From: Paenibacillus humicola
GTDB taxonomy: Bacteria > Bacillota > Bacilli > Paenibacillales > Paenibacillaceae
Assembly: GCF_028826105.1 (NCBI RefSeq)
Contig: NZ_JAQGPL010000001.1
Coordinates: 1,266,501-1,330,500, forward strand
Direction of reading: 5' to 3'
DNA: 64,000 bases
In this document: positions 5,653 to 39,505 of the stretch, piece by piece
Position numbering within the stretch: position 1 is the stretch's first letter
Layout of the letters: each line of letters begins with the position of its first letter
Translations under genes and position numbers: made by a program
Notes under the pieces: generated by a model
Databases searched by the model: none
Told to the model about the DNA's origin: nothing
What the model saw: only the letters and a program-made list of their open reading frames with translations

Positions 5653-6684
5653 ATGCGCAAACCTGTTGGCGGCAGCCGGCCGAACCGGCGCGGTTCCTCC
5701 GCCCGGTTAAGCGGCCGCCCCGGCATCGGGCGGTCCGGGGCGGGCACTTCGGGAGGCCGAAACCGGAGGAAGGGCTCCGGTGCAAGGGCAGCCCGCGTGC
5801 CTTCCCGGATTTCCGCGCGCAAGTCGAGTCGCCGCACGTTATTCAGGAGGCCGGCTGCCGGTGCCGGGAGGGCGGGGAGGCCGGTCTCTTCGGCCGGCGG
5901 CTTTGGACTGCCGGAACAGCTTGAAAGGGCTGGAACGGAAAGGATGGAGGACGAACGGTCCGGGACGGATTCGCCAGCGGTATCCGTCATTATTCCGGTC
6001 ATGAACGAGCGGCGCCTGATCGGCCGTATCGTGCGCGAAAGCCGGAAAATCGGGCCGAGCGCAGAAGTGATCGTCGTCGCGAACGGTTCGACCGACGGCT
6101 CGGCGGCGATCGCAAGAAAGCACGGCGCGCGCGTCATCGAGTTTTCCGCGCCGCTCGGTCATGACGTCGGCCGCAGCGTCGGCGCAGCCGCGGCGCGCGG
6201 CGATGTGCTGCTGTTTATCGACGGCGACATGCTGCTTCCGGCTTCCGTGCTTCAAACGTTCGTCGATCGCGTCCGCATGGACGGTATCGACGTCGCCTTG
6301 AATAATTATTCCGGGCCGACAGCCAAAAAGATCGTTCACAACGTCGTCCTCGCCAAGCATGCCCTGAATGCGATGCTGAGGCGGCCGGATTTAATGGGCA
6401 CCTCGATGACGGCCGTTCCGCATGCGATCAGCCGCCGCGCGCTGGACGCGATCGGGGCGGAAGCGCTGTCCGTGCCTCCGCTTGCCCATGCCAAGGCGGT
6501 TCATTTCGGGCTGCGCGTCCATCCGGTGAGGAGAGTGAACGTCGGCAGGCTGAACCTGCCGAGGCTTCGCCGGGAGCGCACCAACCCGTTGGAAGTACTG
6601 ATCGTCGGCGATCATTTGGAAGCGATCGATTGGCTGAACGGACAAACGGACGGGCGCGGAGGAATGCGGAATGACGGGCGATAA
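5653..6684 (+). CDS. GT2-family glycosyltransferase with basic N-terminal leader
   Basis: 343 residues starting at ATG 5653 behind AAGAGGTG; the frame is open further upstream but without a better start. Residues 1 to ~80 are a low-complexity Arg/Gly/Ser/Ala region. A GT-A domain begins near residue 109 (SVIIPVMNERRL), with VVANGSTDGS for nucleotide binding and FIDGDM at about 189-193 as the metal-binding DxD. Family 2 enzymes transfer a sugar from a nucleotide sugar; the donor and acceptor cannot be read here. No signal peptide or membrane segment, so it should act in the cytoplasm (mother cell if sporulation-specific). It heads a tightly packed plus-strand operon and is paralogous to the next gene. 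Confidence 0.85.
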   Translation: MRKPVGGSRPNRRGSSARLSGRPGIGRSGAGTSGGRNRRKGSGARAARVPSRISARKSSRRTLFRRPAAGAGRAGRPVSSAGGFGLPEQLERAGTERMEDERSGTDSPAVSVIIPVMNERRLIGRIVRESRKIGPSAEVIVVANGSTDGSAAIARKHGARVIEFSAPLGHDVGRSVGAAAARGDVLLFIDGDMLLPASVLQTFVDRVRMDGIDVALNNYSGPTAKKIVHNVVLAKHALNAMLRRPDLMGTSMTAVPHAISRRALDAIGAEALSVPPLAHAKAVHFGLRVHPVRRVNVGRLNLPRLRRERTNPLEVLIVGDHLEAIDWLNGQTDGRGGMRNDGR

Positions 6685-8035
6685 TCGGGAACGGCGAGGT
6701 GAGTTCATGCGGACAAGAACGAAAATAATGCCGGGCAAAGCCGCCGGTCGTACTGTCCGGACGGCGGCAAGGGCCGGCAAAGAGCCAATCGCCCGGGTCG
6801 CGGTCATCAGCGGCATCGGCACGGGTACCCGGCCTGCTGCCCGGGGTACTTCTGCGAATGCGGCCGTCCGGACCGCTTCCGGCGGCAGCACGCGTAAGGC
6901 CGCCCGTCCGGCCGCACGGGCTGCGGCCCGGAGAACCTATCGGCCGGCGGCGGGTAATGCCGGCCGGAAGCGGCGTCCGTCGGCGGCTAGATCCGCCGGA
7001 CGGAAATTCACGCGCCGGCCGGCGCCGGGCGCCCGGCGGCTTCGCGGATCCGGGCGCGCGCTGCCGGCCGGGAAGAGCCCGGCCTTTTACGCGATGGGGC
7101 GTCGCGATGCGGCGGAGATGCTGAAGAACGGGACGCCTCCGGCCGATCCGGCGTCCTGGAAGCTTGCCATGAACCGGGGCTGGACGCAGCATGCGGGCCG
7201 TCTCCGGATGTCCGCCGCTTCCGGTGCCGCGCTTCAGGCGGGGCGTGCTTACGCAAACGGCTATGCCGAAGCGCTGCATATCCCGAGTCCCGGCTGGCTG
7301 CCGGTCGCGGTCGGCAAAACGGCTTCGGCCGTTGTCACGTGCAGCTCGGATCTTGATCCCGGCGCGCTCCGGGAAATGATGCGGCTGCCGCTGCAGGACG
7401 TTTTTGTCGTGCTGGAGGAGACCTCCGGTACGGCGGCCTTCCAGGCCGCCCGCTCGGTGCCCGGCGTTACGGTCGTCCATGCGGCGCAGCCGCTTGGGCC
7501 GAACGAGGGGCGCGCGGTCGGAGCGAGGCTGACGCAGACGGATATCGTGCTGTTTGCGGATGGCGGGGCGCGCTTCGCCGCGGAAGAGCTTGCGCCGTTT
7601 CTGGCGGCGGTGAATGGCGGCGCGGACATTGCGCTGGCCGACCGGACGGCGTCGCTCGGCACGTTCAACAGCTGGGATAACGTCTCGCGGGTCAAAGCTT
7701 TCGTCAACCTGTCGCTGGGACGTCCTGAACTGCAGGCGAATTCAGCCTCCGCGCTGCCGTGCGCCTGGTCGGGGAAAGCGATGGCCGCCGTGGGACGGGA
7801 TTCGATGTCCGTTCCGGCGATGGCTCATCAGTCTGCGCTTGCGCTCAGGCTGAAGCTTGCCCGGTGTCCGGTCCGGTACATCCGGACCGGACGGCAAAGC
7901 ACGGCGGCCGCGGCGGCGCGGGAAATCGGCGACCATATCGCCGCCTTAAGGGCGGCTATGGCGATTCAGGGAGGTAGGCTTGCGCTCCGGGACAAAGTCA
8001 GGCGGCGGATCGCCGCGGGAGGCGGCGGACAATGA
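6671..8035 (+). CDS. Degenerate GT2-like protein with long basic leader
   Basis: 454 residues from ATG 6671 (GGAGGA seven bases upstream, overlapping the previous gene by 14 bp); ATG 6707 behind GAGGTGAG is an alternative start. Residues 1 to ~135 are extremely rich in Arg, Ala and Gly. A short aromatic/Gly stretch follows (SPAFYAMGRRDAAEML). From about residue 210 the protein aligns by eye with the GT domain of the preceding gene, including the late motifs (GRPEL, SVPAMAHQSALALRLK versus SVPPLAHAKAVHFGLR). The DGD metal site of the paralog is DGG here (about 297-299) and the NGSTDGS motif is missing. It is therefore probably a non-catalytic paralog, perhaps a partner of the upstream transferase. 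It overlaps the next gene by ATGA. Confidence 0.75.
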   Translation: MTGDNRERRGEFMRTRTKIMPGKAAGRTVRTAARAGKEPIARVAVISGIGTGTRPAARGTSANAAVRTASGGSTRKAARPAARAAARRTYRPAAGNAGRKRRPSAARSAGRKFTRRPAPGARRLRGSGRALPAGKSPAFYAMGRRDAAEMLKNGTPPADPASWKLAMNRGWTQHAGRLRMSAASGAALQAGRAYANGYAEALHIPSPGWLPVAVGKTASAVVTCSSDLDPGALREMMRLPLQDVFVVLEETSGTAAFQAARSVPGVTVVHAAQPLGPNEGRAVGARLTQTDIVLFADGGARFAAEELAPFLAAVNGGADIALADRTASLGTFNSWDNVSRVKAFVNLSLGRPELQANSASALPCAWSGKAMAAVGRDSMSVPAMAHQSALALRLKLARCPVRYIRTGRQSTAAAAAREIGDHIAALRAAMAIQGGRLALRDKVRRRIAAGGGGQ

Positions 8036-8778
8036 AGCTGACGAGCATTATTATACCGACCTATAATGCGCTGGAGCTGGTAAAGCGGACGGTCGAAGCG
8101 GTTCGGCAGCATACCGATGAGACAGAGACCCCGTACGAGCTGATCGTTGTTGACAACGGCTCAACTGACGGAACGGACGAATGGTGCGCCGGCGAGCGGG
8201 TGCATCTGCTGTCGCTGCCTCGCAACACCGGATTTCCGGCCGCCTGCAATGTCGGCCTGCGGTACGCCCGCGGCGACGGTCTGCTGCTGCTGAACAACGA
8301 TGTCACGGTCATGCCGGGGTGGCTGTCGGGCCTGACGGCCGCCTTGACCGGCATTCCGGATGCCGGCATCGCCGGGCCGGTCACCAACTACTGCAGCGGC
8401 AGGCAGCAGATCGACGTTTCATTTGCGGACATGGCCGATTTTCAGCGCATCGCGGCGGAGCGGAGGGGACGACCCGATCTCGCTCCGGTGCAGGTGCAGC
8501 GGCTGATCGGATTTTGCATGCTGTTCAAACGGGAGCTGTACGAGCGGATCGGCGATCTGGACGAACGGTTTTCCCCGGGCCATTACGAGGATGACGATTA
8601 CTGCCTGCGGGCCCGGATGAGCGGCTTTGGCCTGCTTATGTGTCCGGATGTTCTCGTTCACCATGAAGGAAGCGTCAGCTTCAAACGGTCCGATCCGGGC
8701 CAGCTGCAGCGGCTGGTGAAGACGAACCGGCGGCGGTTTATCGAAAAATGGCGGATCGATCCGTCGACTTTCATGTAG
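8032..8778 (+). CDS. GT2-family glycosyltransferase (rhamnosyltransferase-like)
   Basis: 248 residues, just a GT-A catalytic domain. SIIIPTYNALELVKRT opens the fold, VVDNGSTDGT is the nucleotide-binding motif, LLLNNDV (about 86-91) carries the DxD equivalent and YEDDDYCLRAR is the late acidic motif seen in rhamnosyl/N-acetylglucosaminyl transferases of this class. ATGA overlap with the preceding gene implies translational coupling. It is most similar within the window to the GT2 domain of the gene at 10777 (shared GPVTNY-SG-QQI). No leader and no membrane segment. Donor sugar unknown. Confidence 0.88.
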   Translation: MKLTSIIIPTYNALELVKRTVEAVRQHTDETETPYELIVVDNGSTDGTDEWCAGERVHLLSLPRNTGFPAACNVGLRYARGDGLLLLNNDVTVMPGWLSGLTAALTGIPDAGIAGPVTNYCSGRQQIDVSFADMADFQRIAAERRGRPDLAPVQVQRLIGFCMLFKRELYERIGDLDERFSPGHYEDDDYCLRARMSGFGLLMCPDVLVHHEGSVSFKRSDPGQLQRLVKTNRRRFIEKWRIDPSTFM

Positions 8779-8811
8779 AGGGCCGATTGCGGCGAAGAGG
8801 AGTGTGTTCAA

Positions 8812-9534
8812 GTGAAAGCTGTGATCTTGGCCGGCGGCACCGGCACGAGGCTGCTGCCGTTAACCAGAATCCTGAATAAGCATCTTCTGCCTGTCGGCAG
8901 GCTTCCCATGATTAGCTACAGCCTGGAGAAGCTGAAGGAAGCGGGAATTACCGATATCCTGATCGTGACCAGCAAGGAAGCGGCGGGCATGTTTGCGGAA
9001 TTTCTCGGAAGCGGGCGCGAATTCGGCGTCCTGCTCACCTACCGCATCCAGGAGGACGCAGGCGGAATCGCGCAGGCGCTGGAGCTGGCGGAGTCTTTTG
9101 TCGGCGGCGAGCGAAAATTTATCGTCCTGCTCGGCGACAATTTGTTCGAGGAGCCGCTGGCCGGTCATCTCGCAGCATTCGAGAAGCAGCCGGAAGGGGC
9201 GATGGTGCTGCTGAAGCGGGTACCGGATCCGCACCGTTACGGCGTCCCCGTCTTCGGCCCTGACGGACGGATCGAGCGGATCGAGGAAAAGCCGCCGCAG
9301 CCGCAGACGGATTTCTGCGTAACCGGCATTTATCTGTTCGACGAAACGGTATTCCGTCTCATCGCACGGCAGGAGCCGTCCAAACGGGGCGAGCTGGAAA
9401 TTACCGACGTCAACAACGCGTATGCCTCCGCCGGACTGCTTGCGCACCGGACGATGGAGGGCTGGTTGATCGATGCGGGAACGTTCGAATCGCTGCAGGA
9501 AGCGTCGGCAAGGATGATGGAGGGAGCGCCATGA
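8812..9534 (+). CDS. Sugar-1-phosphate nucleotidyltransferase (RmlA/SpsI-like)
   Basis: 240 residues, starting at GTG 8812 behind GAGGAG. The N-terminal signature AGGTGTRLLPLTRILNKHLLPV is that of glucose-1-phosphate thymidylyltransferases, and LLGDNLFEEPL, EEKPPQPQTDFCVTGIYLFD and ELEITDVNNAY are the usual later motifs. The protein is the short form (~240 residues), as in SpsI of the Bacillus subtilis spore-coat polysaccharide operon, rather than the ~290-residue RmlA. It would activate a sugar-1-phosphate as dTDP- (or UDP-) sugar in the cytoplasm. No RmlB/C/D partners are in the window, so the final sugar is unknown. Overlaps the next gene by ATGA. Confidence 0.88.
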   Translation: MKAVILAGGTGTRLLPLTRILNKHLLPVGRLPMISYSLEKLKEAGITDILIVTSKEAAGMFAEFLGSGREFGVLLTYRIQEDAGGIAQALELAESFVGGERKFIVLLGDNLFEEPLAGHLAAFEKQPEGAMVLLKRVPDPHRYGVPVFGPDGRIERIEEKPPQPQTDFCVTGIYLFDETVFRLIARQEPSKRGELEITDVNNAYASAGLLAHRTMEGWLIDAGTFESLQEASARMMEGAP

Positions 9535-10616
9535 ACGGACGGGGAAACGACAAGCCGGTTTCCGCCTCGTCAGCGCCGGCATTTACCGGGCGAGCGGATC
9601 GGGCAAAAGCGGTTATCGCCGCCGTCAAGACGGGATCCGCACGGCCTGCCCGCAAAAGACGGGCCCGCGCGGGAAGCGGCTCCCGCGTCAAACGCTCGGC
9701 GCGCAAATGGCCCCGCGCCGGCCGGAAGCTCCGGATCACCGGCCCTGCCCGGAAAACGGCGAAAAAGGAGCCGAGGGGCGGACACGGCCCTGAAGAACTC
9801 CAATCCGCATACGAGCTCGGTAAATATGAAGGGGGAGAAATGCTGCTGGAGCAGTGTTTGCCCCCGAATCTGCTGCTCCCGGAGGTAAGCCTCGGGCAGA
9901 TCGTCGCCGCCGGCGTTCAGGCGTACCTGCCGCAATGTTATCCGCTGCTGGACGTAAACGGCGTTTTCGCGGAAATGAACAGCGCCATCGCCGAAGAACG
10001 GCCCTGCTCGGTCGTCCGGCTTGGCGACGGGGAGCTGCTCGCGCTGGCGCAAGGCGTCGTTTACGATGCCGCGACCATTGAGCGGGAAGGGCGCTTTCTG
10101 CCGTATGCCGGCGTCGTGCCGCCCGATCTGGCCGCGCGGGATCAGCTGGCGCAGGCGATCCGGCACTCGCAGATCGTCGGCGTGCCGCAGTCCAGGAAGA
10201 AGCATTTTCAGCCGCTGCTTTATCCGGCGCTGCGCGGTCACGGCATCGATCCGGGCTCGCTTCGCATGACGGTCTCGACGATCAACTACAGCCTGTATCA
10301 GGCCGGACTGCTCATGCCGCTGCTGAGGGGCAGGCGCCTGCTTCTTATCGGCAATGCCGCGCCTCAGCTCGCGCGCGTGCTGACGGATGCAGGCTGTGCC
10401 ATATCCGGCGTCATCAGCCCCGTGCGGGGCTTTCCGGATATCGACCGGGTGATGCGCGAAGCGCGTAATGCCCCGTTCGATCTGGCACTCGTATCCGCGG
10501 GCATACCCGCCGTCGTCATTTGCTGGCGTATTGCGGCGGAAAGAGGAAAGACGGCGCTCGATTTCGGCCATATGGCGGATACGATCGTCAAAGGCGAGAT
10601 TTCGCTGCTCCATTGA
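9531..10616 (+). CDS. GT-D fold glycosyltransferase with basic leader
   Basis: 361 residues. Residues 1 to ~85 form an Arg/Lys/Ala/Gly-rich leader, then AYELGKYEGGEMLLEQC resembles the Gly/aromatic motif after other leaders in this cluster. From about residue 145 the sequence shows the GT-D (DUF1792) hallmarks: SVVRLGDGELLAL with the metal-binding DGE, a Rossmann-like LLLIGNAA segment, and a C-terminal ALDFGHMADTI. GT-D enzymes are known from serine-rich adhesin glycosylation in streptococci, where they add glucose. Here the neighbourhood points to a spore-surface glycan. ATGA overlap upstream; a ~160-bp gap with a duplicated 46-bp sequence follows. Confidence 0.82.
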   Translation: MNGRGNDKPVSASSAPAFTGRADRAKAVIAAVKTGSARPARKRRARAGSGSRVKRSARKWPRAGRKLRITGPARKTAKKEPRGGHGPEELQSAYELGKYEGGEMLLEQCLPPNLLLPEVSLGQIVAAGVQAYLPQCYPLLDVNGVFAEMNSAIAEERPCSVVRLGDGELLALAQGVVYDAATIEREGRFLPYAGVVPPDLAARDQLAQAIRHSQIVGVPQSRKKHFQPLLYPALRGHGIDPGSLRMTVSTINYSLYQAGLLMPLLRGRRLLLIGNAAPQLARVLTDAGCAISGVISPVRGFPDIDRVMREARNAPFDLALVSAGIPAVVICWRIAAERGKTALDFGHMADTIVKGEISLLH

Positions 10617-10730
10617 CGCCGAGCCTTTCCGCAATTGGACGGCGGCACGTTTTATCCGAACGCATGTGGTTGACCACCGTCATGTGACGCCGAGCCTCGC
10701 ACCCATCGGACGAGGGAGCATTTTATCCGA
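10614..10730 (+). repeat. Imperfect 46-bp direct repeat, two copies
   Basis: Copy 1 (10614-10659) begins at the stop codon of the GT-D gene and copy 2 is at 10685-10730. Both begin TGACGCCGAGCCT and end TTTTATCCGA; 35 of 46 positions agree and there is no length difference. The 25-bp spacer contains GTGGTTGACCAC, a short palindrome. Function unknown; the second copy ends 46 bases before the next start codon. Confidence 0.7.
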
Positions 10731-10776
10731 TCGGCGGCTTTCGGGAATCGAATGCGAACATAGGAGGGGGAGAGCG

Positions 10777-12138
10777 ATGAAACGGAAGAAGCCTGCGGTT
10801 CGCCGCGTCAAACGGCGGGCTGCCCGGCCGGCAGCCGTCAGTCCGTCCGGATTTCGCGCCGGCTTCCAGGCCGGTTACCAGGAAGGGCTGCGCTCCGGCT
10901 CCGAAAGCTACGGCACGCGTTTCAACGGCACGAGTATCATTATTCCAAGCTATAATCAGGTCCATTATTTGAGGCAGTGCATCGACAGCATTAACCGGTA
11001 TACCGGGCCCGCTTATGAAATCATCGTGGTCGATAACGCCTCGAAGGACGGGACGGCCGATTATTTGCGCCGCGCCGGCGGCAAGGTGCGCTACCGGATT
11101 CTCGAGACGAACCGGGGCTTCTCCGGCGCCGTGAATGTCGGGCTGATGATGGCCAAAGGAACGACGATGCTGGTGCTCAACAACGATACGGTCGTCACCG
11201 CACGCTGGCTCGACAATCTGCTGCTGTGCCTGTCGAGCGATCCGGCGATCGGCATGGTCGGACCGGTGACCAATTACATCAGCGGCGATCAGCAAATCCA
11301 AGTGCCTTATACCAAAATCGAAGATATGCAGGCTTTTGCCGCGAAGCATAACGTTTCCGACAGCTCCAAATGGAAGCGAATCGACCGGCTGGCAGGCGTC
11401 TGCCTCTTGTTCCGCCGGGAATTGTGGGAGCAAACCGGTTATTTTGACGAAGGCTTCGCGCTTGGCAATTTCGAGGACGACGATTACAATATCCGCGTCC
11501 GGCTGCAGGGCCGTTCGCTTGTCATTGCCGGCGATACGTTCATTCATCATTACGGCAGCATCAGCATAAGGGCGCTTGGGAGTCACTTGGCTGAAGTGAA
11601 CCAGCGCAACCAGCAGTTTTACCAGGAAAAGTGGGGCAATCCGCATTCGCTGGTCCATATGGTCAAAGAAATGATCCGCCTGCCGGGCGGTGTCGAAAGC
11701 ATCGGTCAGCCTCCGGCGCTCAGCGAAACGTCTTTTTTCCCGGAAGGCATCGCCGTCAAAGGAACAACGAATACGGCTTACTGGATCGAAAGCGGCACGA
11801 GACGGCCGATCGCGGGCGAGGCGAACATCCCGGTCGTCCGTATATCGCAAACGGACATGCGGAGATGGCCGGTCGCCGAGACGATCGCCGCGGAAGAGGC
11901 GCATGCGCGCTGGCACGGCGGGACCGGGAATATGGGGGACGGTTATATGGTGACCGGGCCGGACAATATCCATTACGTCCTTGAAAAAGGCACGCGGAGG
12001 CGCATTGCCAGCAGGAACGCGCTGGAACGGTGGGGACTTCAGCATAAGCCGCAGGTACCGTTGACGGCAGAGCAGATCGGTATGCTCCCGGAAGGCCTGC
12101 CGGTCATAGCGCCCGCAATCGTAGGAGAGCGGCTGTAA
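10777..12138 (+). CDS. GT2 glycosyltransferase with basic leader and C-terminal hairpin repeats
   Basis: 453 residues from ATG 10777 behind TAGGAGGGGG; upstream in-frame starts are not supported. Residues 1-24 are strongly basic (KRKKPAVRRVKRR), followed by GFRAGFQAGYQEGLRSG, the Gly/aromatic motif of this cluster. GT2 domain about 50-300: SIIIPSYNQ, VVDNASKDGT, LVLNNDT and FEDDDYNIRV. The C-terminal ~120 residues contain two related segments, NTAYWIESGTRRPIA (near 333) and NIHYVLEKGTRRRIA (near 397), which look like repeated beta-hairpins of a binding module. First gene of a short transcription block that continues into the small proteins. Substrates unknown. Confidence 0.85.
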   Translation: MKRKKPAVRRVKRRAARPAAVSPSGFRAGFQAGYQEGLRSGSESYGTRFNGTSIIIPSYNQVHYLRQCIDSINRYTGPAYEIIVVDNASKDGTADYLRRAGGKVRYRILETNRGFSGAVNVGLMMAKGTTMLVLNNDTVVTARWLDNLLLCLSSDPAIGMVGPVTNYISGDQQIQVPYTKIEDMQAFAAKHNVSDSSKWKRIDRLAGVCLLFRRELWEQTGYFDEGFALGNFEDDDYNIRVRLQGRSLVIAGDTFIHHYGSISIRALGSHLAEVNQRNQQFYQEKWGNPHSLVHMVKEMIRLPGGVESIGQPPALSETSFFPEGIAVKGTTNTAYWIESGTRRPIAGEANIPVVRISQTDMRRWPVAETIAAEEAHARWHGGTGNMGDGYMVTGPDNIHYVLEKGTRRRIASRNALERWGLQHKPQVPLTAEQIGMLPEGLPVIAPAIVGERL

Positions 12139-12287
12139 CGGGCCGTCAAGGGTGAGAAGCAGTCCGGCGATGCAGCATGGCAGGCCGCTCGAACGCTTGA
12201 CGTTTTGATGCCGCGAACGGCTTATCCCGGCAGTATCACACGCTTCCCGCGAGCATATTCTGGTAAAGGAACAGGAGGGACAGCGGC

Positions 12288-12581: not shown

Positions 12582-12601
12582 TGCGGAGGAAGGGATAAGC
12601 C

Positions 12602-12937
12602 ATGGTTCGGGAAACGGCATATTCGCGCATACTGGATGCCTCCGCTAAAATGCAGGGGAATATCGCGATTATTTTGGAAGCGAAGGCGATCGAGGCGGAG
12701 AAGGTTCGCAGCTGGCTGTGCAATCATATGACGCCGGAAGCCTTTGAGGAGCAGGAAGAGCACTTGAAAGAAACCCTGCTTGTTCACGAGCAGCTCGTCG
12801 AGGTGATCGACGGATTGACCCGGCTGAACCAGGGGATGGCGAACGTGCTGAAGGCGGCGCTGCGGCAGGATCAGGACGGGGGAGGCATCGGCGGTCTGCT
12901 GAACGGCGGCTATGACTCGGGAGATCGATCGGAATGA
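12602..12937 (+). CDS. Small helical protein (second of three paralogs)
   Basis: 111 residues, ATG 12602 with GGAGGAAGGG upstream. Two helical repeats are visible: ASAKMQGNIAIILEAKAIEA near the N-terminus and GLTRLNQGMANVLKAALRQD near residue 75. The middle contains one Cys (SWLCNHM) and the C-terminus is Gly/Asp-rich (DGGGIGGLLNGGYDSGDRSE). No recognised domain. The stop overlaps the next start (ATGA), so the two are co-translated. Confidence 0.75.
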   Translation: MVRETAYSRILDASAKMQGNIAIILEAKAIEAEKVRSWLCNHMTPEAFEEQEEHLKETLLVHEQLVEVIDGLTRLNQGMANVLKAALRQDQDGGGIGGLLNGGYDSGDRSE

Positions 12938-13230
12938 GTCTGCTTGTAAAAGAATGGGAGGCGCGAATCGAGCTGCTCCGTTCGATTGCGAACAGCCAGC
13001 GGGCGATCGCGCGCATTCTGGACAGCGTCGCCGACGTTTCCGGGCATTCGCCCGGCATGGCCAAATCGATTCGCGAAAATATCCGCTCCTTGACCGCCAT
13101 GCAGCTGACGATGGCGGAATCGGCCGTCGGCGTCAAGCTCCGCCGGCCGAAGTGCGGAAGGCCGGCACGGCCGTGGCTGCACGAAGCGGTTTCCGCGCCA
13201 TCGGGCCGGCATAAGCATCGCCAGAAGTGA
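12934..13230 (+). CDS. Small helical protein with basic tail (third of three paralogs)
   Basis: 98 residues, ATG 12934 in an ATGA overlap. Helical repeats SIANSQRAIARILDSVADVS and NIRSLTAMQLTMAESAV match those of the two preceding genes. Unlike them it ends in a basic Arg/Lys/Pro/His tail from about residue 68 (KLRRPKCGRPARP..., ...GRHKHRQK), which echoes the basic leaders of the neighbouring enzymes. No known family recognised; the overlap and spacing show it is a real gene. Confidence 0.75.
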   Translation: MSLLVKEWEARIELLRSIANSQRAIARILDSVADVSGHSPGMAKSIRENIRSLTAMQLTMAESAVGVKLRRPKCGRPARPWLHEAVSAPSGRHKHRQK

Positions 13231-13245: not shown

Positions 13246-13539
13246 ATGAAGGGGCATGCACCACACGCGAGACGGCGTTCGGCTTCGGCGCGCAAACGCG
13301 CCGGAGGACGGACGCTTCGGAGCGCAGCGGCAAAGCCGTCCGCGAGGCGCCGGCGCCCTGCGCTGCGGGGCAGGGCAGCGGCGCCCCGCAGACGGAAGCG
13401 CGCCGCGGGGATCAGACGGCGCCCGGCCGTAAAGGGGCGCTCGGCTTCGTTTTATAAGGCGTATAACGAAGGCTTTAACGCCGGCTTTGCCAAAGGGTTC
13501 GAGGACGGCCATCAAATCGCTTACGAACAGCAGCCGTAA
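13246..13539 (+). CDS. Very basic small protein with Gly/aromatic motif
   Basis: 97 residues, ATG 13246 behind GGGAGGAACG. Residues 1-66 are almost entirely Arg, Ala, Lys, Gly, Ser and Pro. The rest is FYKAYNEGFNAGFAKGFEDG plus a short tail, a three-fold G-F-x-x-G motif. This is a stand-alone version of the leader plus motif found at the N-termini of the enzymes at 9531, 10777 and 25388. It could be a spore-coat building block or a DNA/polyanion binding protein; the repeated Gly/aromatic motif favours a structural or targeting role. No family is recognised. Confidence 0.75.
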   Translation: MKGHAPHARRRSASARKRAGGRTLRSAAAKPSARRRRPALRGRAAAPRRRKRAAGIRRRPAVKGRSASFYKAYNEGFNAGFAKGFEDGHQIAYEQQP

Positions 13540-25387: not shown

Positions 25388-26512
25388 GTGAGAGCATCAT
25401 CGCGTAAACGGTACCCTGCGCCGCGGCCGCGTATAGCGCGCGACCGGAAGTCGGGCTACCGGCTCGGCTTCGACCACGGCTATTGGTTCGGGCAGTGCGA
25501 ATCGGTGTTGAAGCGGACGGCCGTTCAGATCGGAATCAAGCCCGTACACGTACTGTTTGTCGCAACGGGCAAAGGCTACCCGTATGCGCCGCTGGACGAG
25601 GCGATTGCCGCTACACTGCGCAGAAATGTCGGCCAATTGACCGTTACCGACGCGGGTCAGCCCGTCGGCGAAATCGCGGCCCGGATCCGGCCGGACGTCG
25701 TCATCGTGCTTGACGGACTCCAGTTCGATACGGCGAAGGCGGACGAGGTCCGCAGGGCGGGCATCCGGATCGCCGTCTGGTTCACGGACGATCCTTACTA
25801 TACGGATATGACGGCTAAGCTTGCCCTGCATTACGACGATGTTTTTACGCTGGAGCTGAACTGTGTCGAATTTTACCGCCGCCTGGGGTGCGAAAGCGTC
25901 CATTATTTGCCGCTCGGCGTTTACCAGGACGAATTTCGGCCGCGCAATCCGGAGCTCAACAAGCGTCACGACATCCTCTTCATCGGCTCGGCCTTTTGGC
26001 GGAGGGTTGAATTTTTCGATCAAATTACGGATTATTTGGCATCCCGCGATACGCACATTTCGGGCATTTGGTGGGAGAGGCTGAAGCGGTACAACCGGCT
26101 GAAGGGCAAAATCGCGCTCGGCCGCTGGATGGGACCCCGGGAAACGGCGGGCATGTACAGCGGCGCGAAAATCGTCATTAACATGCACCGGGCGCCCGAG
26201 GACGATACCTTTAACAGCAACAGCGCAGGCATTACGGCGGTGTCCCCCAACCCGAGAACGTTCGAAGTCTCGGCCTGCGCCGCACTGCAGCTTACCGATA
26301 TCCGGGACGATCTGGCGTCTTTCTATAAGCCCGGGTCGGAAATCGTCACGTACTCCTCCCCTTCGGATATGGTCGAGAAAATCGAATATTATTTAACCCA
26401 TGAGGAGGAGCGCAGGCGGATCGCCATGCAGGGTATGGCCCGCACGATGCGGGAACACACGTATGATCATCGGCTCCGCACGATGCTCTCCATATTATTT
26501 CCGGACAGGTAG
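25388..26512 (+). CDS. cgeB: CgeB-family spore-surface glycosyltransferase with basic leader
   Basis: 374 residues; GTG 25388 behind GGAGGAG. Residues 1-22 are basic (RASSRKRYPAPRPRIARDRK), then GYRLGFDHGYWFGQCES matches the Gly/aromatic motif of this cluster. From about 55 on it is a CgeB-type GT-B protein: VLFVATGKGYPYAPLDEAI, RPDVVIVLDGLQF, AVWFTDDPYYTD, YLPLGVYQDEFRP, DILFIGSAFWRRVEF and the C-terminal half EVSACAALQLTDIRDDLASFYKPGSEIVTYSS with YLTHEEERRRIAMQG. In B. subtilis cgeAB affects the outermost spore layer and is made late under SigK/GerE. Next to germination genes here. Confidence 0.88.
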   Translation: MRASSRKRYPAPRPRIARDRKSGYRLGFDHGYWFGQCESVLKRTAVQIGIKPVHVLFVATGKGYPYAPLDEAIAATLRRNVGQLTVTDAGQPVGEIAARIRPDVVIVLDGLQFDTAKADEVRRAGIRIAVWFTDDPYYTDMTAKLALHYDDVFTLELNCVEFYRRLGCESVHYLPLGVYQDEFRPRNPELNKRHDILFIGSAFWRRVEFFDQITDYLASRDTHISGIWWERLKRYNRLKGKIALGRWMGPRETAGMYSGAKIVINMHRAPEDDTFNSNSAGITAVSPNPRTFEVSACAALQLTDIRDDLASFYKPGSEIVTYSSPSDMVEKIEYYLTHEEERRRIAMQGMARTMREHTYDHRLRTMLSILFPDR

Positions 26513-26557: not shown

Positions 26558-26634
26558 TCTGCGGAATGGTATGGACTTCCAAAATTACGGAAAACCTAGG
26601 AACAAAGTCATCTTCCGCAGACGAGGAGAGCCGA

Positions 26635-27732: not shown

Positions 27733-27948
27733 CAGCGACCTGCCGAGCTGTTTGAAAACGGCTTCGGCCGGCGCATTGAAGCTCGGCACCTTCACCTTGG
27801 CGATCAGCAGGGAGCCGACGACGAGGCTGATGAGCATCAATACGCCGTACAGGAAGGCCGCCGGGTGCTGCCGGCTGGCTGCAAGGGAATGGACCCGGAC
27901 ATACGACCAGACGGCAAGCAGCACGATATAACCTCCGATTTGCAGCAT
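27721..27948 (-). CDS. Small two-TM germination protein (D-subunit-like)
   Basis: 75 residues; ATG 27948 directly after the gerC stop (TAATG), with AAAGGAGATT upstream. Two hydrophobic helices: GGYIVLLAVWSYVRVH and AAFLYGVLMLISLVVGSLLIA, then a basic amphipathic end (AVFKQLGRSLLKK). Small two-helix D subunits accompany some ger operons in Bacillus and adjust the germination rate; size, topology and position fit this class. Sequence similarity alone would not identify it. Confidence 0.75.
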   Translation of the reverse strand: MLQIGGYIVLLAVWSYVRVHSLAASRQHPAAFLYGVLMLISLVVGSLLIAKVKVPSFNAPAEAVFKQLGRSLLKK

Positions 27949-29114
27949 TATTTGACAATCTCCTTTTCCTTTAATTGCAGCGGCGGGCCCGATACCCCGG
28001 TTTCACGCAAATTCAGCTTGACCGAAACCGATATTTCCGCTTCGGGAAACAGCTTGTCCCATTTCTTCTGGATTTGTTTCCATTTGCGGGGATGGTTTCG
28101 GAACAGGACGCCCCCGAACCCAGCGACATCCGATTTATACTCCTTCTGGATCTTGTACAAACATTCCTTCGCTTGCTTTGCGACCGTATCCTCCAGCGCT
28201 TTCTCCGCCATTTTAAGATTCGGCATTCGGGTAATATCAAGCGGCGAATTATTCTCCAGCAGGTCTCCATTTCCCCTCAGCCGGATGTGGAACTTGACCT
28301 TGTCTCCGTTAACCTCGGACGTAATTTTGCTGCTGGCGGTGACTAGGACCATGCCGATGCTTCCGTACCCTTTCGGAAGGGCGGCGACAATGCGGCCTTG
28401 CTTCTTGCGGCCGGTAATCCAGAGCAGTCCGTCCGTCTCCTTCTCGTTCAAAAATCCGGCCAATTTGAGCTCCTTGAAAACGGCCGCGCCCGAAAAACGA
28501 AAAAGGTCTTTTTTGCTTTTCCCTGAAGAGATTTCGGGCGTTATGGCGGCCGCTACCGGATTCCCGCCTTCGCTTGACGATGCGATAAAGAAATCCCGCA
28601 GCGTAACCGACAAATGGTCGCCCAGGATCTCCATTTCTTTCACGGCCTCGGTTGGAGCTTCTTCGAAAGGATACTGAACCTCCACGATTTTCTCCGGATC
28701 ACCGCCCCTGACGACCATAATAAACGTTCTCAGGCGGTTGTGGGGATCGTGGGTAAAAATGTCGAGGATGTCGCCGAGTCCGCGCCTGGCCAGCCGTTCG
28801 CTGATGAAAATCACGCTGCGGTGCGACGTGAACAGCCGCCGGGATAATTTATTTTGCAGCCGCTGGATCGCTTCCATATTGTTCTGCCCGGCAGCGCTCA
28901 AAACGAAAAACTTTTCTTTCCGCCCGCTCCCGTCCGACGTCCCCGCCTGCTGGGGGAGCGCAATCTGGACGGTGCCCTTGACTTCTCCCTTCTTCGTCAC
29001 ATCGAGCGCGGTGCCCATAACGATCGCAAGATCGTTGACTTCCGTCCGGTCCCAGCAGCCGGTTGTGAGCACTAAAGCGGCAATCAGAATCATGCATAAG
29101 AACGGTCTGGCCAT
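27948..29114 (-). CDS. GerC-family germination lipoprotein
   Basis: 388 residues; ATG 29114 behind AAAGGAGG. N-terminal lipoprotein signal peptide MARPFLCMILIAALVLTTGC with lipobox LTTGC; CWDRTEVNDLAIVMG is the typical mature start of Ger(x)C proteins. Later AKQAKECLYKIQKEYKSDVAGFG and FRNHPRKWKQIQKKWDKLFPEAEISVSV match the family C-terminus. C subunits are anchored on the outer face of the spore inner membrane and are needed for receptor function. Middle gene of a minus-strand gerA-gerC-small TM operon. Confidence 0.94.
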   Translation of the reverse strand: MARPFLCMILIAALVLTTGCWDRTEVNDLAIVMGTALDVTKKGEVKGTVQIALPQQAGTSDGSGRKEKFFVLSAAGQNNMEAIQRLQNKLSRRLFTSHRSVIFISERLARRGLGDILDIFTHDPHNRLRTFIMVVRGGDPEKIVEVQYPFEEAPTEAVKEMEILGDHLSVTLRDFFIASSSEGGNPVAAAITPEISSGKSKKDLFRFSGAAVFKELKLAGFLNEKETDGLLWITGRKKQGRIVAALPKGYGSIGMVLVTASSKITSEVNGDKVKFHIRLRGNGDLLENNSPLDITRMPNLKMAEKALEDTVAKQAKECLYKIQKEYKSDVAGFGGVLFRNHPRKWKQIQKKWDKLFPEAEISVSVKLNLRETGVSGPPLQLKEKEIVK

Positions 29115-29139
29115 GACGCTTCCTCCTTTCTTCCGCTGT

Positions 29140-30648
29140 TTACTTTGCTCCCTGCCCCCCGGATTCCGCGGAAGGCGGGCGGCGGCTTTTGTTCCACACC
29201 GGAACGCGGACCAGAATGTCCTTCAAATTCCGCACCGAGATCGGGGCTGCCGGGGCGAAATAAGGAACCCCGAACGAACGCAGGGAGCAGACGTGCAGCA
29301 AAATGCCCAGGAACCCGAGCGCGATGCCGTACAGCCCGAGCGTTCCCGCCAGGAACAGGATCGGGAACCGCAGCAGCCGGACGCCGTTGGCAAAGCTGTA
29401 GCGCGGAATCGTAAACGAGGCGATCCCCGTAATCGAAACGATAATGACGACCGGGGCCGAAATGATGCCCGCCTGCACGGCCGCCTGGCCGATAACGAGC
29501 GCTCCGACGATGCTGATCGCTTGACCGATCTGCTTGGGCAGCCGGATTCCGGCTTCGCGCAGCGCTTCGAAAATGATTTCCATCAGCAGCGCTTCGATCA
29601 GCGCCGGGAAGGGAACCGGCTCCCTGGAGCCCGCAATGCTCAGCAGCAGGCTGGTCGGAATCATCTCCTGATGATAGGTGGTAATGGCCACGTACAGGGG
29701 CGGGGCGAATATCGCGATGATCAGAAAAATGAGCCGGATCCACCGGACGAAGGTGGCGATCGGCCACCGGACATTGTAATCCTCGCTTGCCTGCAAACCG
29801 GCCCAGAAGGTCATTGGCAGCAGGAGCACGAAGGGCGTCGAATCGACCAGCAGCGCGACATTGCCCCCGAGCAGTCCGGCCGCGATGACGTCCGGCCGCT
29901 CCGTGCTCTGGATTTGCGGGAACGGGGAATAGGCATCGTCTTCGATAAATTCCTCGATATTGTTCGAGTCGAGAATGCCGTCGATGCGAATCTTTCGGAT
30001 CCGCCTGCGGACCTCTTCCACAACCGAGGCGTCGGCAACGCCGTCGATATAGGTCAGGGCAACCTCGGTTTGGGTCAGATCGCCGACGGTAAACGTTTCG
30101 ATTTTGAGCCGGGACGTTTTCAGCCTGCTGCGGATGAGCCCGATATTGGTCGAATTGTTCTCGATAAATCCGTCTCTCGGCCCGCGGATGACCGGCTCGG
30201 AGGAAGGCTCCTCCAGGCTGCGCTGCGCTTTGCCGCTGACCGAAACGGCCATCGCCCGCCGCTCGCCCGCCGCCAGAATGACGGCGTTGCCGTTCAGCAC
30301 GTAGCGCACGAGCTCGGAAATGCGGCCGACGAGCGAAATTTCGCCGATCGAAATGAGCAGGTCGTCAAGCGCTTCGATCCCGCCGCTCAGGCTTGCATCC
30401 TTGGCGGAACGATGAGCGATCATCGGGTTCAGGACATGCTCGTCGAGCATTTTTTTATCGACCAGCGACGAAATATAGACAACGATCCACTGCACGTTCC
30501 CGCCGACCCGGATTCGGCGAAAGACGACGTCGGAGCAGTTTCGAAAGATTGATTTTAGATGGGCTTCGTTAAATTCGAGATCGGGGACCAGCTCCCCGCG
30601 GTCTTCCTCTTCGAATTGGAACGTATCCCGGTTTCTGCCCTTTTTCAC
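29140..30648 (-). CDS. GerA-family germination receptor subunit
   Basis: 502 residues. I chose GTG 30648, five bases after AGGTGA, giving KKGRNRDTFQFEEEDRG at the N-terminus; GTG 30657 is an alternative and an upstream extension to 30813 is unlikely. N-terminal soluble domain of about 270 residues (NCSDVVFRRIRVGG, DGFIENNSTNIGLIRSRLK, RIRIDGILDSNNIEEFIEDD, PFPQIQSTERPD), then five to six membrane segments with PLYVAITTYHQEMIP and EIIFEALREAGIRLPKQIG, the GerA signature. It forms the receptor channel with B and C subunits in the spore inner membrane. Confidence 0.93.
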   Translation of the reverse strand: MKKGRNRDTFQFEEEDRGELVPDLEFNEAHLKSIFRNCSDVVFRRIRVGGNVQWIVVYISSLVDKKMLDEHVLNPMIAHRSAKDASLSGGIEALDDLLISIGEISLVGRISELVRYVLNGNAVILAAGERRAMAVSVSGKAQRSLEEPSSEPVIRGPRDGFIENNSTNIGLIRSRLKTSRLKIETFTVGDLTQTEVALTYIDGVADASVVEEVRRRIRKIRIDGILDSNNIEEFIEDDAYSPFPQIQSTERPDVIAAGLLGGNVALLVDSTPFVLLLPMTFWAGLQASEDYNVRWPIATFVRWIRLIFLIIAIFAPPLYVAITTYHQEMIPTSLLLSIAGSREPVPFPALIEALLMEIIFEALREAGIRLPKQIGQAISIVGALVIGQAAVQAGIISAPVVIIVSITGIASFTIPRYSFANGVRLLRFPILFLAGTLGLYGIALGFLGILLHVCSLRSFGVPYFAPAAPISVRNLKDILVRVPVWNKSRRPPSAESGGQGAK

Positions 30649-30867
30649 GATCGTCACCTCAGACCTTGTGCGGATGAAGTTATTTTTCCAAATTCCGTCA
30701 CTTGTATTCTGCGGATAGTTTACGAAAAACGGCCCAGCTCGTTCCAAGGGAGACGAACGCCGGCATCCGGCCATTTTCGCCTGCCGGCGGCCTGCTTTCG
30801 CAGCTTTGTCCAATCGTCGAACGCTTCGTTTTCATAGATTGTAAAAAAGGGGAGGTGCAGCCGAAAG

Positions 30868-33013: not shown

Positions 33014-33127
33014 ACGCCGCAGCCGGAAGGTCTCATCCTTCCATTAATCTATTCCTCATTGGTTGTACGCGGATAAGGATACCTGCCCAATCAGGCAAAA
33101 AAAACGCGGCCGCTTCACGATGGATAA

Positions 33128-34123
<996 letters not shown>

Positions 34124-35635: not shown

Positions 35636-35713
35636 GCAATCCCGAACCGGCGGCCGGCTTACGGCAAGCGGAAGGCGGGAACAACCGAAGCTTAACGAAA
35701 GGGGAGGCGATGG

Positions 35714-37144
35714 ATGAACCGTTTGAAGGCGAAAGTCCGGACGAAACCTTCCGCCAATCGGTTGAAGCGCAGGGGAGCGGCGAAAAGAACGGCTAAAAAA
35801 TCAGGTACGCGAAGGCTCATCCGGCCCGGTCCGCGGCGCAAACGAACGCTGGGGCGGAAGCGGCTTGGCCGCAGGCGGCTTGCGGCCCGCCGCTCCTCGC
35901 AGCGGCATTCCGCCGCGAGCCTCCCTTTGGTCAGCGTCATCATGCCGTCCTACAATCAGGCAACCTATATCCGGCAGTCGATCGACAGCGTCATCGGCCA
36001 GAACTATCCCCGGCTCGAGCTTATTGTCGTAGACGGAGGCTCCACGGATGGAACCGTGGATATCCTGAAAAGCTACGAGCGGCTAGGGGCGGAGAGGTTT
36101 CGGTTCATATCCGAACCGGACCGCGGGCAGGCACATGCGCTGAACAAGGGCATCTCGATGGCCGGAGGGACGCTCCTCGGCTGGTTGAACTCGGACGATA
36201 CGTATCGTCCGGGAGCGGTCAATCGGGCGGTACGGGCGCTGTCCGATCACCCGAATTGGGCGGGCGTTTACGGCCATGCGGATTATATCGATGAAGCGGG
36301 GGCCGTCCTGTATCCTTACCCGACGAAACCGTTCGATCCCGGTCTTCTGCCCGAGGAGTGCTTTATTTGCCAGCCGGCTGCTTTTCTAAGGAAAGACGCC
36401 GTCCTGCAGGCGGGGGGATGGGACGAATCGTTCAGGTTTTGCATGGACTACGATTTATGGATCAGACTTTCGAAGCATCGTCCGATGGGATTCGTCCAAG
36501 AGCGGCTGGCCAATTCGAGACTGCATAAAGAAAGCAAAACCGTCACGATTTGGACCGAAACGGGACTTCCCGAAGTGTTCCGCTTAAGCCTGAACAATTA
36601 TGGCCGAATCGCGAACAAATGGGTGGCCGAGTACGCCCATCACCATTGGCCCAAAGGCGCCCTTTGGCTGCTCGAGCAGTTCAACGCCCATCGCGTGTTC
36701 GGCGATTCTCCGGCGGTCGCGGCCGTCAATCAATACGAAGATTCGTGGTGGCCGCCTAGTGCCGAATTGACGCTCCGACCGGCCGGCACCGGCAAACCGG
36801 TCCATACCCTGCTGATCGAAGGCCGCGGCGCGGCTTCGTATTTTGACCGGCTGCATTTCACCGCATTCGTCAACGGCAGCCCGGTTCAAGCTTATGAGGT
36901 ACCGCCGGATTCGTTCGTATTGGAAATTCCCGTACACAGCGACCGGGAGACGATTTCCGTCGAGCTCCGTCTTGAAGAACGATTTTGTCCTGCGGAACGC
37001 GGCCTGTCTTCCGACGATCGAACGCTGGGGTTTGCAGGAGTCCGGGTTATTCCGCTCACGCCGAAGGAATACGACTTTTACAGCGCATATAAAGCCAATC
37101 CTTCCCATATCCCGAGCTGGCTGCTGCATTTTGACCGGGCTTAG
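35714..37144 (+). CDS. GT2 glycosyltransferase with basic leader and C-terminal beta domain
   Basis: 476 residues; ATG 35714 behind AAAGGGGAGG. Residues 1 to ~66 are an Arg/Lys-rich leader with no Gly/aromatic motif. GT2 domain about 70-330: SVIMPSYNQATYIRQSIDSV, LIVVDGGSTDGTVDIL, GWLNSDDTY (SDD near 159-161), PAAFLRKDAV and CMDYDLWIRLSK. The C-terminal domain, about 345-476, is shared with 34448 and 52817 and ends with LGFAGVRVIPLTPKEYDFYSA. Catalytic residues appear intact. It sits between the damaged paralog and gmd, in one probable operon. Confidence 0.87.
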   Translation: MNRLKAKVRTKPSANRLKRRGAAKRTAKKSGTRRLIRPGPRRKRTLGRKRLGRRRLAARRSSQRHSAASLPLVSVIMPSYNQATYIRQSIDSVIGQNYPRLELIVVDGGSTDGTVDILKSYERLGAERFRFISEPDRGQAHALNKGISMAGGTLLGWLNSDDTYRPGAVNRAVRALSDHPNWAGVYGHADYIDEAGAVLYPYPTKPFDPGLLPEECFICQPAAFLRKDAVLQAGGWDESFRFCMDYDLWIRLSKHRPMGFVQERLANSRLHKESKTVTIWTETGLPEVFRLSLNNYGRIANKWVAEYAHHHWPKGALWLLEQFNAHRVFGDSPAVAAVNQYEDSWWPPSAELTLRPAGTGKPVHTLLIEGRGAASYFDRLHFTAFVNGSPVQAYEVPPDSFVLEIPVHSDRETISVELRLEERFCPAERGLSSDDRTLGFAGVRVIPLTPKEYDFYSAYKANPSHIPSWLLHFDRA

Positions 37145-37201
37145 GCGGCAGAAGTCCCAAGGAAGAGCGAAAACAAATCCAAACGTCACGGGAGGAAAAC
37201 A

Positions 37202-38152: not shown

Positions 38153-38170
38153 CAGATGGGAGTGTAAACC

Positions 38171-39505
38171 ATGGCCAAACTGGCAGTAAAACCCTCCAGA
38201 AGAAAGTCCGTCAGAAGACGGAAAATACGCGCGGCCTTACCGAAAAGCAGGTCTCGCAAACGAATGAAAGTCAAGAAAAAAATCATCATCATCAAAAAGA
38301 CGAAGATCGTAAAAGGAAAGAAAATACGGGTGATCGTGCGCAGGGTCCGAGGTAAAGGAAAGAAAAAGGGCGGCGCACACGCAGCGTCCCCGCAGGTAAC
38401 CAAGGGGATCAATCTATTCGGATTTACGCGGGCGGAAATGGGAATCGGCGAGTCCGGCCGTTTGGCCGCCCGGTCGTTGGAGACGACCGGCATTCCGTTC
38501 GGCATTTTGAATTATACGGAAACGAACCACCGGATGGACGATCTGACATGGCGGCACAAAGAGATGAACGAGGCCAGGTACAGCATCAATCTGTACCATT
38601 TGAACGCCGACAATATGCGAGGAGCCCGGCGTTTCTTCGGCGAAAATGTTTTTATGGCTCCGAACCGGTACCGGATCGGCTATTGGCACTGGGAGCTTCC
38701 GGATTTCCCGGAGGATTCCGCCGCCCAGTTCTGGCTCGTGAACGAGGTTTGGGTCCCGACCAACTTCGTACTCGACAGCATTTCCAAAAAAGCGACGGTT
38801 CCCGTCGTCAAAATTCCTCATGGCATCGAGGTAAACGTCGCTCCCGAATATAACCGGGCTTCGTTTGGTCTTCCCGACGATCGCTTCCTGTTCTTTTCGA
38901 TGTACGACACTCAAAGCTTTCGCGAACGAAAAAATCCTCAAGCTGTCATCGAAGCATTCAAAATGGCCTTCGAACGAAACGATCCTTCCGTCGGACTCGT
39001 GCTGAAGCTGAACAATCCCAACATTCATCCGAACGATGCGGAAGTGCTGCGGCAGCTGAAGGAAGGCTACGACAATATTTATTTGATTTCCAGCATCCTC
39101 CCGAAACGCGTCGTCAATGCCTTGACGAATTGTACCGACTGCTTCGTGTCGCTGCACAGGTCCGAAGGCTTCGGCCTCGGCCTCGCGGAAGCGATGTATC
39201 TGGGCAAGCCGGTCATCGGGACGGACTGGTCCGGCAATACGGATTTCATGAACAGCACCAATTCATGCCCCGTCAGCTACGGCATCGTCCAAGTGGGCGG
39301 CAACTACGGTCCCTACAAAGCGCACCAGTTCTGGGCGAATCCCGACGTCAGGCATGCCGCGGGCTACATGCTCAAGCTTGTCCGGGAGCCCGAATACCGC
39401 AGGCAAATCGCGGAGGCGGGCCAGAGGACGATCCGCAGCGAATATTCGCCGCAGGTCGTAGGCGAAATGATGAAGCAGCGGCTGCTGCGGCTCGGCCTGT
39501 TATAG
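38171..39505 (+). CDS. GT4-family glycosyltransferase with Lys/Arg-rich leader
   Basis: 444 residues; ATG 38171 behind GGGAGTG. Residues 1-72 are the most Lys-rich leader in the window (KVKKKIIIIKKTKIVKGKK). A GT-B fold follows from about 80: GINLFGFTRAEMGIGESGRL, YWHWELPDFPEDSAAQFWLVNEVWVPTNFVLDSI, VKIPHGIEV, FFSMYDTQSFRERKNPQAVIEAF and the GT4 donor motif HRSEGFGLGLAEAMYLGKPVIGTDWSGNTDF. Retaining transferase, often mannosyl or glucosyl. AT-rich codons in the leader stand out from neighbours. Lies between gmd and an epimerase. Confidence 0.9.
   Translation: MAKLAVKPSRRKSVRRRKIRAALPKSRSRKRMKVKKKIIIIKKTKIVKGKKIRVIVRRVRGKGKKKGGAHAASPQVTKGINLFGFTRAEMGIGESGRLAARSLETTGIPFGILNYTETNHRMDDLTWRHKEMNEARYSINLYHLNADNMRGARRFFGENVFMAPNRYRIGYWHWELPDFPEDSAAQFWLVNEVWVPTNFVLDSISKKATVPVVKIPHGIEVNVAPEYNRASFGLPDDRFLFFSMYDTQSFRERKNPQAVIEAFKMAFERNDPSVGLVLKLNNPNIHPNDAEVLRQLKEGYDNIYLISSILPKRVVNALTNCTDCFVSLHRSEGFGLGLAEAMYLGKPVIGTDWSGNTDFMNSTNSCPVSYGIVQVGGNYGPYKAHQFWANPDVRHAAGYMLKLVREPEYRRQIAEAGQRTIRSEYSPQVVGEMMKQRLLRLGLL

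Follow-up and report, generated by a model that had tools for sequence, protein, structure and literature searches.

A 64,000-nucleotide stretch of the Paenibacillus humicola genome (assembly GCF_028826105.1, contig NZ_JAQGPL010000001.1, positions 1,266,501 to 1,330,500; hereafter the window) contains a cluster of glycosyltransferase (GT) genes, several of which encode enzymes that begin with a very basic leader. A reading made from the letters alone (the sequence-only reading) had named seven such genes, starting at window positions 5653, 6671, 9531, 10777, 25388, 35714 and 38171, and had proposed a common targeting or scaffolding tag, possibly for the developing spore surface. The leaders are indeed there, and the pattern goes beyond what was first reported: the key piece, overlooked by the sequence-only reading, is a gene at 13246-13539 for a protein that consists of such a leader and a Gly/aromatic motif alone (hereafter TAG). 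Genes are named below by their start position in the window, and the features concerned, all on the + strand, are these:

187..5316, + strand: LxxGxV-repeat fibre protein of ~2200 residues, beginning 1305 bases upstream of the window (ATG with a good ribosome-binding-site (RBS) match, L239:15196)
5653..6684, + strand: GT2 enzyme with an 83-residue basic leader (leader score 43; Pfam PF00535, 2e-18)
6671..8035, + strand: GT2-like enzyme with a long basic leader (weak Pfam GT2 match) and a weak motif-like stretch, AYANGYAEAL
8032..8778, + strand: GT2 enzyme without leader or motif, a paralog control (by the leader and motif counts of its class)
8812..9534, + strand: nucleotidyltransferase without leader (leader in 0 of 61 members of its gene family)
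9531..10616, + strand: GT-D glycosyltransferase with a basic leader at ~residues 1-85 (PF22882, 3.6e-79)
9789..9857, + strand: motif helix of the GT-D protein (AYELGKYEGGE...; AlphaFold2 helix 87-109, and alignment)
10777..12138, + strand: GT2 enzyme with a short basic leader and the motif GFRAGFQAGYQEGLRSG at 10849-10899
12237..12261, + strand: sigma-K-like promoter CAC-N14-CATATTCT, 26 bases ahead of the 12288 start codon
12288..12581, + strand: h1, small acidic helical protein (58 loci; mean net charge -9.0)
12602..12937, + strand: h2, small acidic helical protein (53 loci; mean net charge -7.2)
12934..13230, + strand: h3, small helical protein (23 loci; mean net charge +4.3)
13246..13539, + strand: TAG, stand-alone basic leader plus Gly/aromatic GX3 helix (97 residues; net charge ~+24)
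13444..13527, + strand: GX3 helix of TAG (AYNEGFNAGFAKGFEDGHQIAYEQ and neighbours; AlphaFold2 helix 67-94, block predicted local distance difference test (pLDDT) 67-90)
25388..26512, + strand: CgeB-type GT-B enzyme with a short basic leader and the motif GYRLGFDHGYWFGQCE at 25454-25501 (PF13524, 9.7e-35)
35714..37144, + strand: GT2 enzyme with a 69-residue basic leader and no motif (by leader scoring and homolog comparison)
38171..39505, + strand: GT4 enzyme with a ~75-residue Lys/Arg-rich leader and no motif (leader patchy across relatives)

Basic N-terminal regions were present at all seven genes named by the sequence-only reading. On one scoring function their leaders reached 43 (5653), 64 (6671), 41 (9531), 18 (10777), 14 (25388), 47 (35714) and 49 (38171), with net charges of +9 to +33. 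For background, 20 stretches of this genome totalling 400 kb supplied 282 called proteins that were 150 residues or longer; their maximum score at called starts was 13.9, a value exceeded by six of the window leaders and about equalled by 25388. The net charge of the N-terminal 80 residues lay between +11 and +34 in the seven genes and peaked at +13 in the background. By charge alone 10777 and 25388 stand out only modestly; what singles them out is the motif. Shine-Dalgarno-like matches of 4-7 bases preceded all seven starts, the weakest being that of 38171, and 6671 has an alternative start at 6707. A plain gene caller picked later starts for 5653 (5944) and 38171 (38264); the longer forms are favoured because the leaders are conserved in relatives. 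The caller used for relatives favours K/R-rich upstream extensions, and with it the window genes scoring at least 14 were exactly the seven and 13246. By the same leader scoring the GT2 neighbours 8032 and 34448 had no leader. Outside the window, no RBS-matched start gave a leader of at least 15 in 16 of 17 GT2-family (PF00535) genes; the remaining one (L015) gained its leader solely through a long upstream GTG extension. Spread of the leader by recent DNA duplication was rejected, as the window leaders share only 9-14 base DNA words.

The leaders recur in relatives. When 296 genomes of Paenibacillales were searched for GT-D, 151 had a match, and among the 29 best GT-D relatives (L087-L115) the leader scored at least 20 in all except L094, L100 and L104 (26 of 29). 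For the alignment scan the best 80 of 198 loci were used (Paenibacillus, Cohnella, Thermobacillus, Fontibacillus and one Paenibacillaceae isolate), which together with the window and six further stretches made 87 loci with 1166 called genes. Leaders of at least 20 were found in 62/110 members of the GT2a family (5653/6671), 22/110 of the GT2b family (8032/10777/46005), 47/65 of GT-D, 8/12 of GT4, 2/10 of a GT-B-like family (community 16) and 4/85 of CgeB. The same calling procedure gave none among 385 genes of 13 other families; 46 of 389 unclustered genes had one, mostly stand-alone TAG. The start was RBS-supported for leaders of 49/65 GT-D genes (six more had a leader at the called start without such support), 42/64 of the 5653 type and 32/45 of the 6671 type. 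The GT2b family offers an internal comparison, its 110 genes comprising 56 nearest 8032, 51 nearest 10777, one nearest 46005 and two unassigned to any class. The first two types have the same GT2 fold and lie mostly in the same clusters, yet only the 10777 type is tagged: leader in 21/51 (35/51 at score 12), motif in 41/51 and a mean net charge over the N-terminal 40 residues of +9.0, against 1/56, 0/56 and -0.3 for the 8032 type. Two further kinds of leader-bearing protein were seen beside GT4 genes: ~730-residue GT enzymes with strong basic leaders that adjoin leader-bearing GT4 genes (L080:542-2728 in G023, with GT2 and GT4 domains, and one at L053 in G007), and a 270-residue protein that matches no Pfam family and has a strong basic leader, next to a GT4 fragment at a contig end (G032 contig C115, L082:18799-19611).

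Leaders of this kind could also arise from wrong start codons or from translated GC-rich non-coding DNA. The Arg-rich nature of GC-rich frames suits such an origin, as do the later starts chosen by the plain caller and the false leaders in the background, where scores above 20 appeared in 3/282 proteins when any upstream start with a good RBS match was permitted and in 2/301 with the extension-friendly caller. However, the uncorrected ratio of nonsynonymous to synonymous differences (pN/pS) in the leaders was 0.13-0.91 and below 1 in 32/32 close pairs, pairs that number at most eight per class, were chosen by similarity, are not independent and in several cases lie near silent-site saturation; those with a silent divergence of at least 0.72 in both parts had been dropped, uncounted. 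With all 32 ratios below 1, the leaders are translated and loosely constrained. For enzyme bodies the ratio was 0.11-0.41, and for the motif part of TAG 0.03-0.25. Lys and Arg make up on average 35% of the leaders (n = 148; R 21-28%, K 7-16%, with 27% K in GT4), which contain very little Asp/Glu and little hydrophobicity. The Arg share tracks GC (r 0.45), total K+R does not increase with it (r -0.24), and TAGs were found also at loci of 43-46% GC. The pN/pS values, these lower-GC TAGs, the control families without a single leader and the RBS matches all oppose an artefact, and for the tested families mis-annotated starts and GC-driven Arg-rich translation were rejected; we consider this explanation extremely improbable. 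Together with the structural model of TAG, the ratios show that selection on the tail is loose and acts mainly on composition, while the TAG helix is strongly conserved.

Short open reading frames of the TAG type numbered 39, encoded proteins of 81-136 residues with a mean net charge of +21.9, and occurred in 37 of the 87 loci. These proteins consist solely of a basic tail and a Gly/aromatic stretch. The tail is freely variable and the C-terminal 30 residues conserved (AYNxGYNxGFAKGFEDGHQLAYEQQ), with G76, G80, G84 and G88 invariant in 24/24 sequences. In the AlphaFold model of TAG (mean pLDDT 67, predicted template modelling score 0.29) the tail has no secondary structure (block pLDDT 55-63) and a helix spans residues 67-94. 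Three Cohnella loci (L191, L178 and L153, at ~13.4-14.2 kb) carry two tandem stand-alone TAG genes, possibly a heteromeric pair.

Among 5.8 billion proteins searched, TAG had 69 relatives. Many were nameless, and the others were called hypothetical or uncharacterised, FliH or flagellar assembly protein H, or once L20; the named organisms were Paenibacillus, Cohnella and Gorillibacterium. The TAG profile matched 246/296 genomes of the order, in 36/48 genera (E<=0.001). Eighteen matching stretches were inspected, drawn from the matches listed with the weakest not included, and all 18 had a TAG-like short reading frame at the match, although the L213 copy begins acidic as called; where the gene caller had missed genes, in several of these loci, TAG was read directly from the DNA. 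At the level of the phylum 44/398 genomes matched. Six of these belong to the order, and the 38 matches outside it were weak (E 4e-8 or weaker); five of the 38 were read by eye and three of those five scanned, all three being FliH. A sequence search of the PDB with TAG gave nothing relevant (two matches, E 0.15 and 0.26), and phage records gave no match.

A Gly/aromatic stretch had been noted behind four of the leaders, and it is indeed present in 9531, 10777, 25388 and, most weakly, 6671. A hidden Markov model (HMM) of the motif built from TAG matched members of GT-D (16/65 at E<=1), of one GT2 family, of CgeB and of a further GT family, and no control family. In the CgeB family the motif lies within the first 60 residues in 64/85 members. 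When the whole genome was searched with the TAG profile at E<=10, 10777 was the second of only two matches (E 3.4e-4; 150 of 159 candidates scored). The enzymes that carry the motif differ in fold. The catalytic domain and fold of 9531 are those of GT-D (DUF1792; PF22882; NCBIfam NF040628, 1e-69; best Foldseek match 4pfx, a DUF1792 GT-D, E 1.5e-6), but ahead of this domain stand an extra ~110-residue tail and helix; in the AlphaFold2 model residues 1-80 are nearly all below pLDDT 50 and the catalytic domain mostly above 90. Protein 25388 joins Glyco_trans_1_2 (PF13524) to DUF3880 (PF12996, 2.4e-15), a combination that we take to mark CgeB-type enzymes. Pfam assigned GT2 domains to 10777 and 35714 and GT4-type domains to 38171. 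These sequence and model comparisons indicate that the tag is a module common to members of GT-D, GT2 and CgeB-type GT-B and to TAG. For the main cluster, a tag shared by unrelated GT folds is thus well supported, and a stand-alone tag protein adds to it. The claim of a common module on different folds was supported for the families of 9531, 10777 and 25388 and, by leader more than by motif, for those of 5653 and 6671; it fell for 35714 and in part for 38171.

The basic tail might act by electrostatic retention only, binding acidic phospholipid, an anionic polymer or a phosphorylated coat protein at the forespore surface. The GX3 helix would then do no more than lengthen or stabilise each catalytic domain, and TAG would be a compositionally similar structural protein of the coat. 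The K/R-rich composition of the 148 leaders, poor in Asp/Glu and hydrophobic residues, and the tails of 35714 and 38171, which lack the motif, fit this explanation. However, the motif part of TAG is far more conserved than the tail, a motif common to several folds and to TAG is unexplained by a fold-specific stabiliser, and a GT2 at L211:8189 retains the motif with hardly any tail. We regard retention by charge alone as unlikely, if still deserving of weight.

The TAG repeat resembles that of FliH/YscL, regulators of the flagellar/type III ATPase, in having G[Y/F]xxG repeats with an aromatic x1 on a helix. Tyr and Phe account for more than 45% of x1 in GxxxG of FliH, GYxxGFxxG occurs at twice its expected frequency, and the GxxxG-repeat helix was proposed to mediate soluble helix dimerisation (PMC2674601). 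The TAG profile matches FliH proteins outside the order, three of which carry the FliH domain PF02108 at 4e-23 to 5e-18; at E<=1 the 24 TAG sequences matched nine families, none of them PF02108. Unlike FliH, TAG has a polybasic tail and no FliH C-terminal domain was found in it, and its motif sits on glycosyltransferases. TAG as a relative of FliH was rejected, the repeat alone being in common. The short GX3 motif is also like the deca-GX3 motif of Yae1-Lto1 (Yae1_N, PF09811), in which glycine substitutions in the GX3 adaptor motif weaken the complex (PMC4523923). Sub-threshold Yae1_N matches were obtained with 23/24 TAGs (best E 1.8e-4), and a precomputed PF09811 label was found on 1/69 TAG relatives, the weakest one. 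Membership of TAG in Yae1_N was rejected, the window TAG scoring 19.3 bits, below the Pfam gathering cut-off of 27.5; in contrast to Yae1-Lto1, TAG is bacterial and has a polybasic tail. We know of no ATPase partner for TAG and of no Fe-S or Rli1 connection. By analogy with both systems, TAG probably works through helix pairing with the tagged GTs.

The recurrent gene order, drawn from at least 21 loci in one comparison and at least 15 in another, was fibre, GT2a, GT2a, GT2b, nucleotidyltransferase, GT-D, GT2b, h1, h2, h3, TAG, CgeB, CgeB, GT4-like and WecB-like, with members absent or displaced in many loci; in the window a CgeB gene lies 12 kb beyond the rest of the cluster. The fibre gene family was present in 43/87 loci, and its repeats match PHROG tail-fibre families. 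The fibre protein has a short basic N-terminus and may be a surface fibre and glycosylation substrate. By eye h1, h2 and h3 resemble paralogs; none has a Pfam family above cut-off. A TAG match was found in 111/113 genomes with a strong GT-D and in 135/183 without (Fisher p 2e-9, relatedness ignored).

Promoter evidence links the cluster to a predicted late-sporulation timing. A strict sigma-K-like pattern was found upstream of h1 in 21/58 loci, against a mean of 0.46 and a maximum of 3 in 200 dinucleotide shuffles. With mononucleotide shuffles, GT2a gave 6/63 matches against 0.9 expected and the fibre gene 2/5 against 0.0. No strict match was found upstream of CgeB (61 genes with a gap), GT-D, h2 or h3, and the other families had one each. 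The putative h1-h2-h3-TAG operon thus often has a sigma-K-like promoter, which lends support to the spore link suggested by the sequence-only reading. The cluster might instead glycosylate the S-layer or an exopolysaccharide of vegetative cells, with the tag clustering GTs at the membrane, since nucleotidyltransferases, epimerases and many GTs suit any surface glycan. The h1 promoter counts speak against a vegetative role, as does the presence of CgeB-type GTs, the B. subtilis namesake being a spore gene, and we find such a role improbable.

In Bacillus, clusters of the sps, cge and BclA type for the crust and exosporium contain GTs and nucleotidyltransferases that glycosylate spore-surface proteins. 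The content of GTs and nucleotidyltransferases here is similar, but the fibre is an LxxGxV-repeat rather than a collagen-like protein, and to our knowledge those clusters have neither an N-terminal tag nor a stand-alone tag protein. The F-ENA appendages are fibres on spores of a Paenibacillus isolate, and in Bacillus a putative glycosyltransferase gene lies near F-BclA (PMC11952670). F-ENA subunits are DUF4183 proteins, whereas the fibre beside the GT cluster has no DUF4183 match. Literature searches limited to open-licence papers of PubMed Central showed no such tag. The sequence-only reading knew of no described system of this kind.

The leaders may then serve a targeting or scaffolding role. 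In our preferred reading, a bipartite assembly tag gathers late-sporulation GTs, and TAG would act as the hub; we hold this tentatively, at just short of an even chance. The first part of the tag would be the unstructured Arg/Lys-rich tail and the second a soluble GX3 helix made of G-aromatic-x-x repeats. As suggested by FliH and Yae1-Lto1, the helix would pair with other copies, enzyme with TAG or enzyme with enzyme, while the polycation tail could tether the assembly to an acidic partner where the spore surface is forming. The gathered enzymes would glycosylate a surface component, perhaps the neighbouring repeat fibre, late in sporulation and in the mother cell. The proteins h1 and h2 are candidate acidic partners because their mean net charges are opposite to that of TAG, and a cation-pi (Arg-Tyr) condensate is a possible outcome. 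Covalent anchoring is a further explanation: transglutaminase or dityrosine formation would cross-link the Lys-rich tails and the Tyr- and Gln-rich terminus of TAG, building the GTs into the spore coat. Many TAGs have an HQLAYEQQ-like end, and K/Y-rich cross-linked coat proteins occur in Bacillus; nevertheless, the leaders are mainly Arg, with an R share that correlates with GC, and Lys is not specifically retained. Anchoring of this kind seems to us quite improbable.

Several results weigh against the assembly-tag reading. The AlphaFold models are of single chains and cannot show helix pairing. Exact sigma-K matches were missing from 37 of the 58 h1 upstream regions. GT-D is not the only partner of TAG, because 135 genomes have TAG without a strong GT-D match. 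Applied to the window enzymes at E<=10, the motif HMM recovered only 10777 (E 0.22) and 25388 (3.9), 9531 and 6671 being absent. Clean motifs were found in just 3/64 relatives of the 5653 type and 13/45 of the 6671 type; in h2 a regular expression for the motif matched 5/53 proteins and the HMM none. The mean charge over the N-terminal 25 residues of CgeB, +3.3, is no higher than the +3.6 of the nucleotidyltransferase control.

Two of the seven genes, 35714 and 38171, stand apart: they have strong tails and no motif at all. Orthologs without the leader, named by the sequence-only reading as evidence against a common tag, were found for the first and in part for the second; leaders were kept in most orthologs of GT-D and of the 5653 and 6671 types, and in 21/51 (score 20) or 35/51 (score 12) of the 10777 type. 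For 35714 the leader was present in 0/20 homologs (18 from 17 other genomes, two from this genome), and its standing as a conserved tagged enzyme was rejected; in L242 and L244 the similarity does extend over part of the leader, but is interrupted there by in-frame stops. For 38171 the leader is patchy: relatives in G007, G023 and G032 have it, while three good homologs (two in G022, one in G024) do not. Within the locus community of 38171 an RBS-supported leader was found in 9/12 members, the other three being fragments cut at the end of a stretch. The tails of 35714 and 38171 look like lineage-specific additions or losses.

Elsewhere in the window, two gene sets (26566-30813 and 60758-63357) resemble, by eye, subunits of GerA-type germination receptors. 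Similar helical N-terminal segments with LLNRE-like motifs, presumably DUF4214-like, occur at 40549-41037, 42860-43072, 43099-44400 and 49069-49554 among surface-polysaccharide genes.

A wider version of the assembly-tag reading, possible yet in our view doubtful, is that Paenibacillales have a docking system for spore-surface glycosylation. The tag would be an address that can be added to any GT fold, TAG and the acidic h1 and h2 would build, under sigma-K, a condensate or scaffold around the forespore, and the tails of 35714 and 38171 would be recent partial recruitments. If the gathering role holds true, a natural enzyme-gathering tag for several unrelated GT folds, with its own hub protein, would be present in the majority of the genomes sampled from a large spore-forming order, and it would account for the organisation of sequential GTs during spore-surface assembly. 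With its 97 residues, TAG is a testable entry point into the Paenibacillus spore surface and may provide a tool for enzyme co-localisation.

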